DNA of 64,000 nt from an uncultured Paracoccaceae bacterium (GTDB lineage: Bacteria > Pseudomonadota > Alphaproteobacteria > Rhodobacterales > Rhodobacteraceae): positions 186,001 to 250,000 of the forward strand of contig CANMAI010000003.1 of assembly GCA_947495795.1 (NCBI GenBank), written 5' to 3'. The notes under the pieces are model-generated. The model searched no databases and was not told the origin of the DNA. It was given only the letters and a program-made list of their open reading frames with translations. Numbering within the stretch: the first letter of the stretch is position 1; every line of letters starts with the position of its first letter. Shown here piece after piece: positions 7,019 through 49,997 of this stretch. The translations under genes and the position numbers were made by a program.

Positions 7019-7579
7019 TCATGCGCCGCGCGCTATCGCAGCAACGCCGGTGCGGGCCACTTCTTCGAGGCCAAGAGGGACCATGAGGGTGACGAAAGCG
7101 TCAATCTTTTCTGGTGTGCCCGTGAGTTCGAAGACGAAGGATTCCAGTGTGCTGTCCACCACGCTCGCGCGGAAAACCTCGGAGGTGCGCATTGCCTCCA
7201 CCCGTTTCTCGCCCGTGCCGTTGACTTTGATGAGCGCAAGTTCACGCTCCACGGATTTGCCCTCGACAGTAAGATCGTGGACAGAATGCACGGGCACCAT
7301 GCGGCCGAGCTGCGCCTTTATCTGTTCGATCACTGCGGGTGTGCCTGTGGTAACGACCGTAATGCGCGAGCGGTGGCCGGTATGATCGATTTCGGCCACC
7401 GTGAGGCTATCGATATTGTAGCCTCGCCCGGAGAAAAGGCCGATGACGCGCGCAAGAACGCCCGCCTCGTTGTCGACGATGATGGCGAGTGTATGCGCCT
7501 CTATGATCTCGGCATTGGGATCGCGGAGATCATAGGCGGAATGGCTGGAGGTTCCGGATTTTATTTTAAGTGGTGACAT
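7019..7579 (-). CDS. ilvN: Acetolactate synthase small (regulatory) subunit
   Basis: Regulatory subunit of acetohydroxyacid synthase, the first common enzyme of valine, leucine and isoleucine synthesis; it stimulates the IlvB catalytic subunit and carries end-product inhibition. The 186-residue protein has an N-terminal ACT domain (residues about 27-100: HTLAIIVDNEAGVLARV, then GRGYNIDSLTV) and the C-terminal ALS_ss domain (about 105-180). A GGGGG ribosome site lies just upstream of the ATG. The gene is not directly coupled to ilvB: an opposite-strand gene and a sulfotransferase gene lie between them, so it needs its own promoter or long readthrough. Also called IlvH. Confidence 0.95.
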   Translation of the reverse strand: MSPLKIKSGTSSHSAYDLRDPNAEIIEAHTLAIIVDNEAGVLARVIGLFSGRGYNIDSLTVAEIDHTGHRSRITVVTTGTPAVIEQIKAQLGRMVPVHSVHDLTVEGKSVERELALIKVNGTGEKRVEAMRTSEVFRASVVDSTLESFVFELTGTPEKIDAFVTLMVPLGLEEVARTGVAAIARGA

Positions 7580-7685
7580 GTTTCCCCCGTAACGGATTGG
7601 AGCGGGCTTTTTGCTCTAGGTTGATGGATGTATGCCCGGTTTTTGCAGGCAGGGCGAGCGACTTTTGTATGGAGAGGTGTGTGAG

Positions 7686-8549
7686 ATGCAGCACGAAAGC
7701 ACGGCGCCAGTGGTTGCACGCTCGGCCATTTGGGACGGGCGCACGCCGCCAAAACCAGGCGCCGCACCGGATGCGCCTTGGCAGAAGCTTTGCCCGTATT
7801 GCGACGCGCCATTGAGCAAGACGGAGGTGTTTCGGCCTGGCCATTGCGCGGCGGCGGCTTGCGGGCACCGGCACATCCTTTTGCTCAACTATCTGGCGGA
7901 GGAGGGCCGGCGTGCCGCGTATCACGCGGATTGCGAGGCTGCTGAGCCGCGGCAAGCGGCACGCGCACTGGCGGTGAAGGAAGGGTGCGAGGCGGACGAT
8001 GTGGTTTCTGTGATCGTTCCCTATCAGAACACCGCTGTCGTGCCTTTGCCGGGGGAACGGCGGGATGCGTTTCTTGCGCATCTGGCTGAGGCTGTGGTGG
8101 AGGCCTTTGAGAAAGAGCCGGTGGTTGGGGCGGTGGAGGTGCCGCCCGAGGCTGCCGCCCCTCTTACAATCGCCGGGTGTTCGACGTGTCAGGGCTATTG
8201 CTGCAAGCAGGGTGCGGATCGGAATGCATTTCTGACGGCTGGTGAGTTGGTGGAGATCCGGGCCCGGCGGCCCGATATGGATGCTAAGGCTCTGATTGCC
8301 TTTTATGAGGCCGCATTGCCCGAGGCATCGGTGGAGGGCGCGTGCGTTTATCAAGGGCCGCTGGGATGCGTATTGAGCCGCGATGTTCGCTCTTCCGTAT
8401 GCAACACGTTCCATTGCCGGGAGTTGATCGAGGCGTTTGCGCGGGTTGGCGACATGCCGGGTGCGCCGGTGACTATACTGGCCCGCTCTGACGAGGGTGT
8501 TGAGGCCATTGGCGCTATGGGGGCGGACAAGGTGTGGCGCTTGATGTGA
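7686..8549 (+). CDS. Cysteine-rich protein with zinc-ribbon-like and YkgJ-like metal-binding modules
   Basis: Function unknown. About 287 residues from the ATG at 7686, which has a GGAGAGG ribosome site; an in-frame ATG at 7632 would add 18 residues. The N-terminal part has a CPYC ... C ... CGHRH pattern like a zinc ribbon. The C-terminal third has CSTCQGYCC followed by CVYQGPLGC and CNTFHC, which resembles the CxxCxxCC iron/zinc-chelating family (YkgJ, UPF0153). A middle segment (roughly residues 70-145) has no recognisable motif. The gene runs opposite to ilvN and to the sulfotransferase gene and sits between them. I infer metal binding only; no enzyme activity can be assigned. Confidence 0.72.
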   Translation: MQHESTAPVVARSAIWDGRTPPKPGAAPDAPWQKLCPYCDAPLSKTEVFRPGHCAAAACGHRHILLLNYLAEEGRRAAYHADCEAAEPRQAARALAVKEGCEADDVVSVIVPYQNTAVVPLPGERRDAFLAHLAEAVVEAFEKEPVVGAVEVPPEAAAPLTIAGCSTCQGYCCKQGADRNAFLTAGELVEIRARRPDMDAKALIAFYEAALPEASVEGACVYQGPLGCVLSRDVRSSVCNTFHCRELIEAFARVGDMPGAPVTILARSDEGVEAIGAMGADKVWRLM

Positions 8550-8655: not shown

Positions 8656-9480
8656 TTAGTACTCCGCCCTTCCGGGCGCATTGAAATCCGTACAGGGCGG
8701 CAGGGGGAGGGAGATGTCGGGTTTGTTGAAGAGGATATCGTAGAAGGGTGCGAAGCGGGTGAGTATCGCTTTGCTTTCCGTCTCTGAAAGCTCCTGTTTG
8801 TGACGCGCAGGCGTGGCCTTGTTGCGCAGCGTCTTGTCGGCGCGCGCCACCTTGCGGGCAATGCGGCGCGGGTTTCCCTCCAGTCCGAGTTGGGTGAGGA
8901 TCTGGGCGGCGCCTTTCTCAGTATCGAAGGCGAAGTACTCGTATTGCAGGGGGCGAACACCCGGGAGCTGCAGCCACGCAGAGAGGCTGTCGAGCTGGTT
9001 GGCGATGCCGTTGCAGGCATCCTCCAGAGTGTGGATTTCGGAAAAGGCCGGGCGGCCCTTTGCTCGGGCTCTCTTGCCATGATCAATGAGGGAAAGAGCC
9101 ATATCGCGTGGGTCCCGGAAAATGGCGTGAGCCCGCGCCTCTCCTGCCTGAACCCAGCGCACCATTATATCTGAGGGACGGCCATGTGTTTTTATCACGA
9201 TCGGGTGGCGTTCTTCCTCCAGAGCCGTGCGGATGAGCGCAGCCTTTTCCGCATCCAACTGACCAAAGAAGTTGATGCGGCGCGGGCGTGTATCCGGAAA
9301 GGGGATGAGAGGCTGGTCAAAGCCAGCCTCCGTAAGGGCGACACGGGTCAACTCAAAGGCCAGTGTGGTGCCGCATTTTGTCATCCCATAGCTGAAAAAC
9401 GCAAATTTTTCAGTTTCTTCGGGGCCTTTTCTAGACCAGAACGGCACCGCCAACCTCAATGACATCCTTGGTGCTGGCAT
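8656..9480 (-). CDS. Sulfotransferase family protein
   Basis: Predicted to transfer sulfate from PAPS to an unknown acceptor. The 274-residue protein has the N-terminal PAPS phosphosulfate-binding loop ([17 protein letters not shown], near residues 28-44) and the 3'-phosphate site ([15 protein letters not shown], near residues 140-155), the two diagnostic motifs of the fold. The frame opens inside the 3' end of ilvB, an overlap of up to 50 bases. A GTG at about 9447, preceded by GAGG, is an alternative start and still keeps the PAPS loop. The overlap suggests co-transcription with ilvB. A biosynthetic link to branched-chain amino acids is not obvious. The substrate is unknown. Confidence 0.8.
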
Positions 9481-11229: not shown

Positions 11230-11252
11230 AAAAAAAGCCCCGTTGAGGGGCT
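11230..11252 (-). terminator. ilvB attenuator terminator
   Basis: On the minus strand the 6-bp stem AGCCCC / GGGGCT (11252-11247 with 11241-11236) closes a 5-nt loop and is followed by about seven U. It lies about 45 bases before the ilvB start and 27 bases after the leader-peptide stop, the position expected of a transcription attenuator. Just upstream, GCGCGAGC inside the leader frame (11301-11294) is exactly complementary to GCTCGCGC (11262-11255), a likely competing stem. Confidence 0.8.
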
Positions 11253-11279
11253 GTGCGCGAGCGGACCGATCTGGAAGGG

Positions 11280-11330
11280 TTACTTCCGCCGGGGCTCGCG
11301 CTTTCCAATAAGGACCACGTTCTGCTTCAT
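11280..11330 (-). CDS. ilvB leader peptide (16 residues, attenuation)
   Basis: A short frame encodes [16 protein letters not shown] and then TAA. The run Val-Val-Leu-Ile consists of the three end products of the ilvB pathway, as expected where ribosome stalling senses charged branched-chain tRNAs. It is followed by an alternative stem and a terminator ahead of ilvB. A promoter-like TTGACC (11366-11361) and TAAAAC (11343-11338), 17 bases apart, would place the transcript start only a base or two before the ATG, so the leader may be translated from a nearly leaderless transcript. No Shine-Dalgarno sequence is present. The arrangement is visible; the regulation is inferred by analogy with known ilv and trp attenuators. 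Confidence 0.78.
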
Positions 11331-11337
11331 ACTTTTT

Positions 11338-11366
11338 GTTTTATGTCGGGAGAATCGCGGGGTCAA
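11338..11366 (-). promoter_or_regulatory. Probable ilvB operon promoter
   Basis: TTGACC at 11366-11361 and TAAAAC at 11343-11338 are separated by 17 bases on the minus strand; CATAAA two bases earlier is a second reading of the -10. They precede the leader-peptide ATG at 11330 by only a few bases. Confidence 0.55.
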
Positions 11367-11443: not shown

Positions 11444-12058
11444 TTACTCACGCAAGACGCCATGTTCCAAAGCATATCGAGTGAGACCGGCTGTGGAAGA
11501 GATATCGAGCTTGCGCTTGATGTTCTTGCGGTGTGTTTCAACCGTCCGAACGGAGATATCGAGGCTGCGGGCAACCTCCTTGTTGCTTTTGCCGCTCGCA
11601 AGCTCCAGCAAAACGGTTTGTTCGCGGCTGGTCAGCGGCTCGCGGCCGGGTTCGGCTATCGTCTGCTCGGTGCCGTTGCACATGTACTTTTCGCCGGCAC
11701 TTACCTTTTCGATGGCGTCCACGATTTCCTCAGTTGGTACATCCTTCAAGAGGTAACCACTGGCCCCGTGGCGCAGCGCTGTGGAGATGTATTCGGGGCT
11801 GTCATGCATGGAAAGGATGAGGATACGCGCCTCCGGGTTGTGTTCGAGCATAATCTCGGTGGCGGCGAGACCGGAGAGAACGGGCATGTTGAGATCCATC
11901 AACACGATATCGGGGGCGTGGGCATCGAAGGCATCAAGGGCTTCCTGCCCGTTGGCGGCTGTGGCGACAACTTCGATGTGATCGTAGGTTTCGAGAAAAC
12001 CCTTGATGCCGTCCACAACAAGGGGGTGATCGTCGGCGAGGAGAACGCGGATACTCAT
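11444..12058 (-). CDS. LuxR/NarL-family response regulator
   Basis: DNA-binding response regulator of 204 residues. Receiver domain at about 1-120 with the acidic pair D9-D10, the phospho-acceptor D55 (in VLMDLNMPV) and the conserved lysine in GYLLKDV; LuxR-type helix-turn-helix at about 140-200 (LTSREQTVLLELASGKSNKEVA, then SVRTVETHRKNI). Its ATG overlaps the kinase stop by four bases, so the pair is translationally coupled. The pair faces away from the dctPQM TRAP operon, so this protein is the likely regulator of that transporter, probably in response to its substrate. That link is inference from position. Confidence 0.93.
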   Translation of the reverse strand: MSIRVLLADDHPLVVDGIKGFLETYDHIEVVATAANGQEALDAFDAHAPDIVLMDLNMPVLSGLAATEIMLEHNPEARILILSMHDSPEYISTALRHGASGYLLKDVPTEEIVDAIEKVSAGEKYMCNGTEQTIAEPGREPLTSREQTVLLELASGKSNKEVARSLDISVRTVETHRKNIKRKLDISSTAGLTRYALEHGVLRE

Positions 12059-13491
12059 GCGGATTTACGGCCTTCTGAACTGGGCTCCCCGGCTGGGAGC
12101 ATGTGTTTGAGGGGGAGCTTGGCTTCGACAAGTGTGCCCTTGGCGGAGGAAAGGAGGCGGATTGTGCCATCGAGATGTTCAACACGTTCGGCCATGTTGC
12201 GCAGGCCAAGGCCGGGGCTGACGGCGCGGTTGCTGTTCTTGAGGCCCACGCCGTTATCCTCGATGCGGAGGGTTGCCCCGCGTCGGTTGCCGAAGAGTCG
12301 CATCTTGACTTTGGAGGCTTCCGCGTGGCGTTCGATATTCGTGAGCGCCTCCTGCGCCACCCGGTAGAGAGCCGTTTTGGCGTCATCCGTAAGGCGGTTG
12401 CGGAAGACGACCGTTTCAAACTCCGTCTTGATGCCGGTGCGCTTGGAGAAATCTTCCACGAGAGACTTGAGGGCAGGGCCGAGGCCAAGATCATCCAGCA
12501 CGCCGGGGCGGAGATCGCGACTGATACGGCGGACTTCCTGAATTGCGACGTTGAGGCCCTCTGCGGATGTGGCGATGCCATCGGCGGCACCGGATTTTCC
12601 GGTTTTGAGGCGCCGGGCCGCAAGCTCCAGCGCATAGCGGACGCCGACGAGGATCTGACTGATGCCATCGTGCAATTCGCGGGCAACGCGGCCGCGCTCC
12701 TCCTCCTGTGTGTCAAAGATGCGCTGCGTCAGTTCCTTGAGCTTTGCATCCGCGAGGCGGCGTTCCCGCACATTTAACACGAGGCCCGAGGCGAAGACGA
12801 TCAAGAGGGCGGCCAGCGTAATGAGGATGATAAAGAGGAATGTGCGCTGGATGCGGGCTTCGGTACCTGCCCGCACGATAGCCACCTCTTCCAGCACATC
12901 GTCTATCCAGATACCGGTACCGAGCGCCCACCGCCAATCCTGAAAGCCGATGACATAGGAATACATCTGGCCGGTTTCGCCAGTAGAGGGCTGGGGCCAG
13001 GGGTAGCGGTGATAGCCGCCGCCGCCGCGGGCCTTGGCGATGAGCGTCTGGACAACCTTTTCTCCGTCGCGGTCCTCCGCGTCGAGCCAGTTCTTGCCAA
13101 TCAGATAAGTCTGCTTGGGGCTGACGATATTGGTGCCGCCGTATTCGTAAACAAAGAAGAAGCCGTCGTCGCCATAGGTCATAGCCGCAAGGATCTGGGC
13201 AACTTCTCGTTTGGCATCTTCATTATCTGGTGCAGCGTTGCCGTAGATATGGCCGATCGCCGTGCGTGCGAGGCTCATATAGTTCACGAGCTCCGCCTGC
13301 TTTGCTTCCAGCAGCCGCTCTTCCATGAACTGGATCTCACGATCCGAGAGGGCGCGTGCCTGATACATCACTACGGAAGCAATCGCGGCGGCCGCGAAAA
13401 CAAGGGGAAGTGTAGCCAGAAGAAATACCTTCTGCCCATAAGTCAGATGCAGCCACCTTGCAGGTGGTTTGGCTGTATTATTCGCTCCCAA
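12055..13491 (-). CDS. Cache-domain sensor histidine kinase (HisKA_3 type)
   Basis: Membrane sensor kinase of 478 residues, partner of the adjacent LuxR-type regulator. A membrane helix lies at about residues 20-43, then a periplasmic single-cache sensor at about 45-212 (AMTYGDDGFFFVYEYGG, GKNWLDAEDRDG, then GFQDWRWALGTGIW, typical of cache domains that bind small carboxylates), a second membrane helix at about 216-240, a HisKA_3 dimerisation segment with phospho-acceptor H274 in ARELHDGISQ, and an ATPase domain ending near residue 465 (DNGVG and GLGLRNMAERV motifs). The frame appears to use a TTG start with GGAGAG just upstream; the next ATG would remove the first membrane helix. Divergent from dctP. 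Confidence 0.9.
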   Translation of the reverse strand: MGANNTAKPPARWLHLTYGQKVFLLATLPLVFAAAAIASVVMYQARALSDREIQFMEERLLEAKQAELVNYMSLARTAIGHIYGNAAPDNEDAKREVAQILAAMTYGDDGFFFVYEYGGTNIVSPKQTYLIGKNWLDAEDRDGEKVVQTLIAKARGGGGYHRYPWPQPSTGETGQMYSYVIGFQDWRWALGTGIWIDDVLEEVAIVRAGTEARIQRTFLFIILITLAALLIVFASGLVLNVRERRLADAKLKELTQRIFDTQEEERGRVARELHDGISQILVGVRYALELAARRLKTGKSGAADGIATSAEGLNVAIQEVRRISRDLRPGVLDDLGLGPALKSLVEDFSKRTGIKTEFETVVFRNRLTDDAKTALYRVAQEALTNIERHAEASKVKMRLFGNRRGATLRIEDNGVGLKNSNRAVSPGLGLRNMAERVEHLDGTIRLLSSAKGTLVEAKLPLKHMLPAGEPSSEGRKSA

Positions 13492-49798: not shown

Positions 49799-49875
49799 GC
49801 GGTTGTAGCTCAGTTGGTTAGAGTGCCGGCCTGTCACGCCGGAGGTCGCGGGTTCGAGCCCCGTCAACCGCGCCA
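49799..49875 (+). tRNA. tRNA-Asp (anticodon GUC), copy 1
   Basis: Cloverleaf with acceptor GCGGTTG / CAACCGC, anticodon stem CCGGC/GCCGG around loop CTGTCAC (anticodon GTC at 49833-49835), T arm GGTTCGAGCC, discriminator G and encoded CCA. GUC anticodons are substrates of the tgt product encoded at 42011. Confidence 0.97.
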
Positions 49876-49920
49876 CTGCTGCTGGGCCCCTCGGGCCGTA
49901 AGGCGCTTGCCGTGATCTCC

Positions 49921-49997
49921 GCGGTTGTAGCTCAGTTGGTTAGAGTGCCGGCCTGTCACGCCGGAGGTCGCGGGTTCGAGCCCCGTCAACCGCGCCA
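49921..49997 (+). tRNA. tRNA-Asp (anticodon GUC), copy 2
   Basis: Identical over its 77 bases to copy 1, 45 bases after it, with anticodon GTC at 49955-49957 and encoded CCA. The pair is a recent or homogenised tandem duplication and is likely co-transcribed. Confidence 0.97.

Follow-up and report, generated by a model that had tools for sequence, protein, structure and literature searches.

The ilvB gene of the window (the whole stretch of 64,000 nt that was analysed) is preceded on the minus strand by a leader that we read, with a probability of about 0.75, as an attenuator with a leaderless branched-chain peptide. All of the elements that the initial annotation had listed between positions 11230 and 11366 are present in their places (Table 1), and comparison with relatives identifies the leader, in our reading of the alignments, as its lineage's form of an attenuator conserved in the host family. 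The comparison describes one orthologous switch at 189 ilvB loci, in which the sensing codons, the helix and the terminator are kept and in which ribosome loading and the register between helix and terminator change between genera. In folding predictions the window leader has a z-score of -3.31, with none of 200 shuffles equally stable, and the score of the helix formed by strands 1 and 2 (the 1:2 helix) was equalled in 5 of 300 dinucleotide shuffles of the leader. At Rfam gathering scores the whole window yields three tRNAs only, and the leader is unmatched.

Table 1. Elements of the ilvB leader and the genes that follow it in the window.
Feature	Position	Strand	Basis or remark
-35 element TTGACC	11361..11366	-	sequence; TTGAC in 189/189 parsed host-family leaders
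-10-like element TAAAAC	11338..11343	-	17 nt after -35, 7 nt before leader ATG
Leader peptide frame, 16 codons + stop	11280..11330	-	ATG 11330; stop 11282-11280
Putative regulatory codons GTG GTC CTT ATT, leader codons 5-8 (VVLI)	within 11280..11330	-	
Strand 1 (GCGCGAGC)	11294..11301	-	in second half of peptide frame; partner of strand 2
Strand 2 (GCTCGCGC)	11255..11262	-	ends 2 nt before terminator stem
Intrinsic terminator AGCCCC-TCAAC-GGGGCT	11236..11252	-	terminator scan
U-tract, seven T	11230..11236	-	first T can also pair in stem
ilvB, acetolactate synthase large subunit, 584 aa	9431..11185	-	ATG 11185; NF006581 and Pfam
Sulfotransferase gene	8656..9480	-	overlaps ilvB end by 50 nt; Pfam PF00685
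ilvN, acetolactate synthase small subunit	7019..7579	-	Pfam ALS_ss_C

An ilvB ortholog was found in 158 of the 159 host-family genomes surveyed. We compared 210 ilvB loci, made up of 30 loci from one set of genomes, 80 from named contigs (both among the matches listed) and 100 from genomes of the family. Removal of four exact duplicates left 206, six of them from other families, where no leader was parsed (0/6). The GC hairpin with seven U that had been pointed out in the window is an intrinsic terminator, and a terminator was parsed at 193 of the 206 loci. Left out were the 13 loci without a parsed terminator (the six from other families are among them, and L074, L028 and L146 show a leader by eye) and a further four without a parsed leader (L075, L104, L201 and L207). 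A promoter, a V/L/I-rich peptide and a terminator, in that order, are thus found at 189 of 206 ilvB loci, and a helix was parsed in all 189. The promoters have TTGAC in every one of these leaders, a 17-nt spacer in 173 and a -10 element that opens with TA in 184.

The commonest leader peptide, found at 139 loci, has 15 residues: a methionine and two variable positions, then mostly five V/L/I codons, and usually an RMGR end. Codons 4 to 8 specify V, L or I in 131, 136, 131, 126 and 126 of these peptides, respectively, and when typical rows are aligned, the second position of each of these codons, a T, is among the near-invariant columns. Judging by these columns and counts, the V/L/I codons as such are under selection in the family leaders, which bears out the earlier proposal of a branched-chain (VVLI) leader peptide before ilvB. 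The shortest leader, that of L010 (genome G003), has eight codons (MRHNVVLI) and stops directly after the sensing codons; a further ATG comes immediately after its stop (TGAATG).

In its typical form the leader has a Shine-Dalgarno sequence, a peptide that ends in RMGR, and a 1:2 helix (GGCGCAUGGG/CCCAUGCGCC) that overlaps the base of the terminator. Overlap into the terminator stem amounts to 2-5 nt in 169 of the 189 family leaders and to 1 nt in two, and there is none in 18. We folded the leaders with the ribosome stalled or at the stop codon, its edges being set by an assumed footprint. In nascent RNA of the 169 typical loci, before the 3' arm of the terminator is made, the first three bases of the 5' arm were taken by upstream pairing with a mean probability of 0.87 in the stalled state and of 0.15 with the ribosome at the stop codon; in equilibrium folding the basal pairs of the terminator likewise differed between the two states (0.71 versus 0.99). 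According to these models, the typical form is an ordinary two-state attenuator. The typical leaders are strongly conserved in sequence between strand 1 and the stop codon (GGCGCATGGGCCGGTAACGG; columns 27-47 and 64-73 of alignment A4), possibly in connection with a second function of the RMGR peptide end or of the leader RNA.

On a tree of IlvB (202 residues), the window falls within a clade of 13 loci with a support of 86, inside which the branching is unsupported (an inner node has a support of 0); 12 of the 13 leaders were parsed. The helix stops 0-4 nt short of the terminator in all 12, with a gap of 2 nt in the window. The 8-base stem noted in the initial annotation is present, and in this clade the seven outer pairs of the helix are intact in 84 of 84 cells, a count that is inflated because the helices were found by searching for complementarity. 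Both-sided changes occur in four of the pairs. When strand 2 was swapped among species, at most 81 cells were paired in 10,000 trials, and when it was slid by 1-3 nt, at most 52. Taken singly, the clade helices were equalled by 0 to 43 of 300 shuffled leaders, those of L011 (43/300), L118 (20/300) and L052 (19/300) not being striking alone. When the search was widened to 45 nt, the best helix still ended no more than 4 nt from the terminator base in 10 of the 12 clade leaders; in the leaders outside the clade the distance was at most 5 nt in 176 of 177. In L011 and L156 the widened search prefers an inner helix. Because the seven outer pairs are kept with both-sided changes, the clade's non-overlapping helix does not look like the product of decay. 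The expectation of compensatory change fails in the 30 typical rows, where there is none: the sequence of the stem hardly varies among them, and only 15 of the 30 form the outermost pair, so that these rows say little for the structure.

The earlier suggestion that this stem competes with the terminator by pairing found no support in the comparison. Helix and terminator share no bases in the window, nor do they in any other leader parsed in the clade (12 of 12), for which reason the 8-bp stem is not by itself a competing structure. In equilibrium folding, the basal pairs of the terminator are predicted at 0.95 in both ribosome states for the clade and at 0.96 in both for the window. Strand 1 corresponds to leader nucleotides 30-37, and on the assumed footprint a ribosome at the stop codon would cover 75% of it (nearly all of it in typical loci), while a ribosome that waits at codons 5-6 would leave it largely free. 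With the terminator predicted at 0.96 in both states and strand 1 covered to 75%, the models therefore give no classical mutual exclusion of helix and terminator in the window. The window does have a frame rich in cognate codons upstream of the gene, an intrinsic terminator between frame and gene, and an alternative helix that would become available when the ribosome stalls and be masked when it reaches the stop codon (again on the assumed footprint); exclusion of helix and terminator by shared bases is what it lacks. For this last reason we do not count the leader as a standard member; we regard it as a variant whose action is probably that of the family attenuator. It was not matched at E <= 1 by R2, a covariance model of the typical leaders, and has thus diverged far. 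R2 was built from the 30 typical rows in place of R1, a model from mixed rows that contained no base pairs, probably because the two registers misalign.

The window and most of its clade also differ from the typical form in how the peptide begins. A near-leaderless start without a Shine-Dalgarno sequence, as had been proposed for the window, was found at 11 of 190 scored loci, including those of the two nearest genera (G003 and G092). Eight of these lie in the window's clade, where 8 of the 12 parsed leaders start the peptide 6-7 nt after the -10 hexamer; L113 and L121 lie elsewhere, and L074 was added by eye for the tree. L104 may be leaderless too and was left out of the count. In the 10 parsed leaderless loci, the distance from hexamer to start is 6-7 nt, compared with at least 20 nt in 177 of the 179 others. 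A Shine-Dalgarno sequence of at least four bases occurs in none of the 10 (the window among them) and in 166 of the 179 others, whose start codons were chosen to favour one. At loci such as L018, L101 and L178, starts 9-15 nt after the hexamer were chosen at first and then rejected, the likelier start being a second in-frame ATG after a Shine-Dalgarno-like stretch. The leaderless state is clustered on the IlvB tree, where 5 changes account for it; none of 500 shuffles needed fewer than 9. The -35 and -10 pair of the initial annotation is present in the window as TTGACC-17-TAAAAC, and TTGACC is exact in 9 of the 10 leaderless loci; the -10 element lacks the usual final T, as it does in 8 of the 10 (window included) and in 20 of the 179 others. 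The promoters of leaderless loci may for this reason be misread by a base or more. From the promoter spacing, the lack of a Shine-Dalgarno sequence and conservation, we infer that the transcript of the window starts at the ATG, and we consider leaderless initiation likely in the window and its clade.

The attenuator probably operates as follows. Transcription would start at or within about two bases of the peptide ATG, and a ribosome would load directly on the 5' end and sense the charged tRNAs for Val, Leu and Ile. When these amino acids are sufficient, the ribosome would reach the stop codon and cover most of strand 1; strand 2 would stay unpaired, the terminator would form and transcription would stop before ilvB. 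When one of them is short, the ribosome would wait at codons 5-8, and strand 1, left free, could pair with strand 2 ahead of terminator synthesis. The 1:2 helix of typical members would then take away the lowest 2-3 pairs of the terminator. In the window's clade, a helix flush at the terminator base might instead block closure of the hairpin in the RNA exit channel, with read-through into ilvB and the sulfotransferase gene. We favour this steric hindrance because the clade helix is kept at the terminator base, and we hold it tentatively, as a possibility with the odds somewhat against it. If it is true, antitermination would need position only and not base competition, and would be coupled to leaderless translation of the sensing peptide.

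Other explanations have to be weighed against these steps. Strand 1 could antiterminate in another way in the window and its nearest relatives, with GAGCCCCG imitating the 5' arm of the terminator and pairing with the 3' arm CGGGGCUU. This duplex is predicted at -14.4 kcal/mol, compared with -11.2 for the terminator in the window, and pairing of this type is equalled in only 1, 3 and 7% of shuffled leaders in L001, L009 and L118. Those are the only clade members in which leader segments complementary to the 3' arm stand out; in the other nine of the 12 they are equalled by at least 14% of shuffles. (Segments complementary to the 5' arm are at shuffle level in all 12.) Moreover, GAGCCCCG lies partly within strand 1, whose pairing with strand 2 precedes synthesis of the 3' arm, and the window terminator remains at 0.96 in full folding. 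We think such a route quite improbable. A role of the clade's 1:2 helix as a pause or processing hairpin, and not as an antiterminator, is a somewhat better candidate, although an unlikely one. The terminator would then act in both states, and regulation would be weak or would come about through the closeness of ribosome and polymerase. That helix and terminator share no base in the 12 parsed clade members, and that the terminator is predicted in both ribosome states, fits such a hairpin; the helix is nevertheless kept by covariation with the V/L/I codons still upstream, and its position at the terminator base in 10 of 12 members in the wide search would be needless if it stood free.

Leaderless initiation itself has a rival, in which the 5' end of the transcript lies upstream or downstream of the proposed site and the ATG belongs to a leader of some length that lacks a Shine-Dalgarno sequence. 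The poor -10 hexamer speaks for it, as does a rule-based scan of the window leader, which requires the final T of the -10 element and found no promoter. We still doubt it, given that eight clade leaders and L113 have the first base of TTGACC 35-36 nt ahead of the ATG, and that leaders with a Shine-Dalgarno sequence start typically some 20 nt further down than the leaderless ones. It is also conceivable that the terminated leader RNA or its peptide acts in trans as well, as rnTrpL and peTrpL do in Sinorhizobium. The peptide peTrpL is a precedent in the account given in PMC7298713, and in the typical leaders the sequence of strands 1 and 2 is frozen, the 30 rows showing not one compensatory change. 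Since the window's clade has lost both the frozen sequence and the RMGR ending while the parts of the attenuator stay, there is little likelihood of this. With one orthologous switch whose ribosome loading and helix register change between genera, two questions become open to comparative tests: how ribosome and RNA polymerase can stay in step along some 100 nt of a leaderless message, and whether antitermination requires bases shared between antiterminator and terminator.

The product of the downstream gene, ilvB, scores 1113 bits against the NCBIfam equivalog NF006581 (cut-off 974) and has three TPP-enzyme Pfam domains. The neighbouring gene, which the initial annotation had rightly placed next to ilvB, encodes a product that matches the sulfotransferase family PF00685 at E 3e-5 (23.9 bits, cut-off 22); no NCBIfam match was found for it. 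A sulfotransferase gene lies directly 3' of ilvB in 9 of the 11 clade members examined, the window included (the contigs of the other two end too early and were left out). Among the clade genomes it is present in G002, G003, G092 and G111 and not in G006 or G148. In the 67 named loci of at least 8 kb it directly follows ilvB in four, all of them in the window's clade; outside the clade, G017 has a similar gene further downstream. This pattern of adjacency makes the gene mostly a trait of the clade, and it probably belongs to the regulated transcript. The gene ilvN lies downstream of ilvB on the same strand in all 67 of these loci. It is separated from the sulfotransferase gene by about 1 kb in the window and in G002, and because this stretch in the window is occupied by an ORF on the opposite strand, membership of ilvN in the same transcript is uncertain and it may need another promoter. 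The ORF (7632-8549, plus strand) encodes many Cys residues and has no Pfam match. Directly upstream of the leader, positions 11444-13491 encode a LuxR-type response regulator and a Cache-domain histidine kinase.

Attenuation of ilvB in alphaproteobacteria and leaderless ilvB leader peptides in actinobacteria are already known, and the lineage seems to have rebuilt two parts of a known type of switch. Attenuation of Caulobacter crescentus ilvBN is mentioned in PMC4117421, which cites Tarleton et al. 1994, and PMC1273637 names Vitreschak et al. 2004 as the source for an ilvB leader peptide in alphaproteobacteria. As these two sources describe it, the alphaproteobacterial attenuator resembles that of the window in having a leader with Ile/Val codons before ilvB(N) and a rho-independent terminator. 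The window differs in its helix without terminator overlap and in a peptide that probably starts at or near the 5' end, the Caulobacter leader being compared by description only. Leaderless ilvB leader peptides are named for Corynebacterium glutamicum ilvBNC, C. diphtheriae ilvB and Streptomyces lividans ilvL (PMC11857589, PMC5784534, PMC8079986); they share with the window a branched-chain peptide before ilvB, and in the statements made there its start codon coincides with the transcript start or is one base away, or the peptide is termed leaderless, as we propose for the window. These belong to another phylum. In the host family, loci in the leaderless state have relatives around them in which the orthologous leader carries a Shine-Dalgarno sequence.

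The rhizobial trpL (rnTrpL) of Sinorhizobium is presented in PMC7298713 and PMC10117765 as an attenuator RNA that starts at the ATG of the leader peptide, as we propose for the window, but according to the same accounts it has Trp codons and precedes trpE(G), and so differs in gene and sequence. Within Rhodobacterales, uORFC-8-2 is put forward in PMC8632094 as a ribosome-mediated attenuator like that of the window, with tandem Cys codons before cysS in place of branched-chain codons before ilvB. Titles and abstract openings among the matches listed, which mostly lie outside the subscription journals, name no leaderless or non-overlapping ilvB attenuator in alphaproteobacteria.

The comparison also suggests an identity for an Rfam family catalogued as an sRNA gene, RF02502 (Atu_C8, 'Rhizobiales sRNA'). 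This model aligns the window leader end to end, from the peptide start to the U-tract, at 21.3 bits and E 0.035, a score that does not reach its gathering cut-off of 50 bits. With E up to 5, it aligns 11 of 18 other family leaders searched, the best being L128 (36.1 bits, E 4e-4); only L128 and L123 have E < 0.1, and all fall under the cut-off. A V/L/I peptide (MIILVVGPRMGRAV) with GCGCAUGGGC/CCCAUGCGC is a possible reading of its consensus. RF02502 matches 2 of 142 genomes of the host class. In the family to which the better of these two belongs, it matches 7 of 36 genomes, exceeding the cut-off in six of those seven with 70.7-98.8 bits. At these six strong loci (L218 and L221-L225, all of one other family) the terminator is followed by an MFS gene and not by ilvB, the absence of ilvB having been checked by search in L218. 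The idea that Atu_C8 is the rhizobial ilvB leader was rejected, as the strong matches precede an MFS gene. Given the V/L/I-readable consensus and the MFS gene after the terminator, Atu_C8 is probably not an sRNA gene standing on its own; it looks like the V/L/I attenuator leader that precedes an MFS gene. By eye, the ATG lies 7-8 nt after a -10-like hexamer in L218, L224 and L225.

A leader of this kind is present in the window's own genome. There the model of typical leaders, R2, finds a single place at E <= 1, which is not the ilvB leader (G000:C5:180162-180257, minus strand; L227). L227 is a second V-rich leader (MYVVVVPPNRRRGR) with a terminator, before a Bcr/CflA-type MFS gene whose product scores 192.9 bits against TIGR00710, just under the cut-off of 200.9. 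R2 matches 7 of 190 genomes of the host class, namely the window's own, two members of the family, in which the match lies at ilvB, and four genomes from other families, in which an MFS gene follows every match. An MFS leader in every family member was considered and rejected: it was seen at 3 of the 30 MFS loci examined, which were those listed out of 74 matching genomes, and 7 of these loci were unscored because the start motif was not found. L227 has by eye a Shine-Dalgarno-like GGGAGAG, and an in-frame upstream ATG is also present. Elsewhere in the window, two tRNA genes with equal scores lie 48 nt apart on the plus strand (49799-49994).
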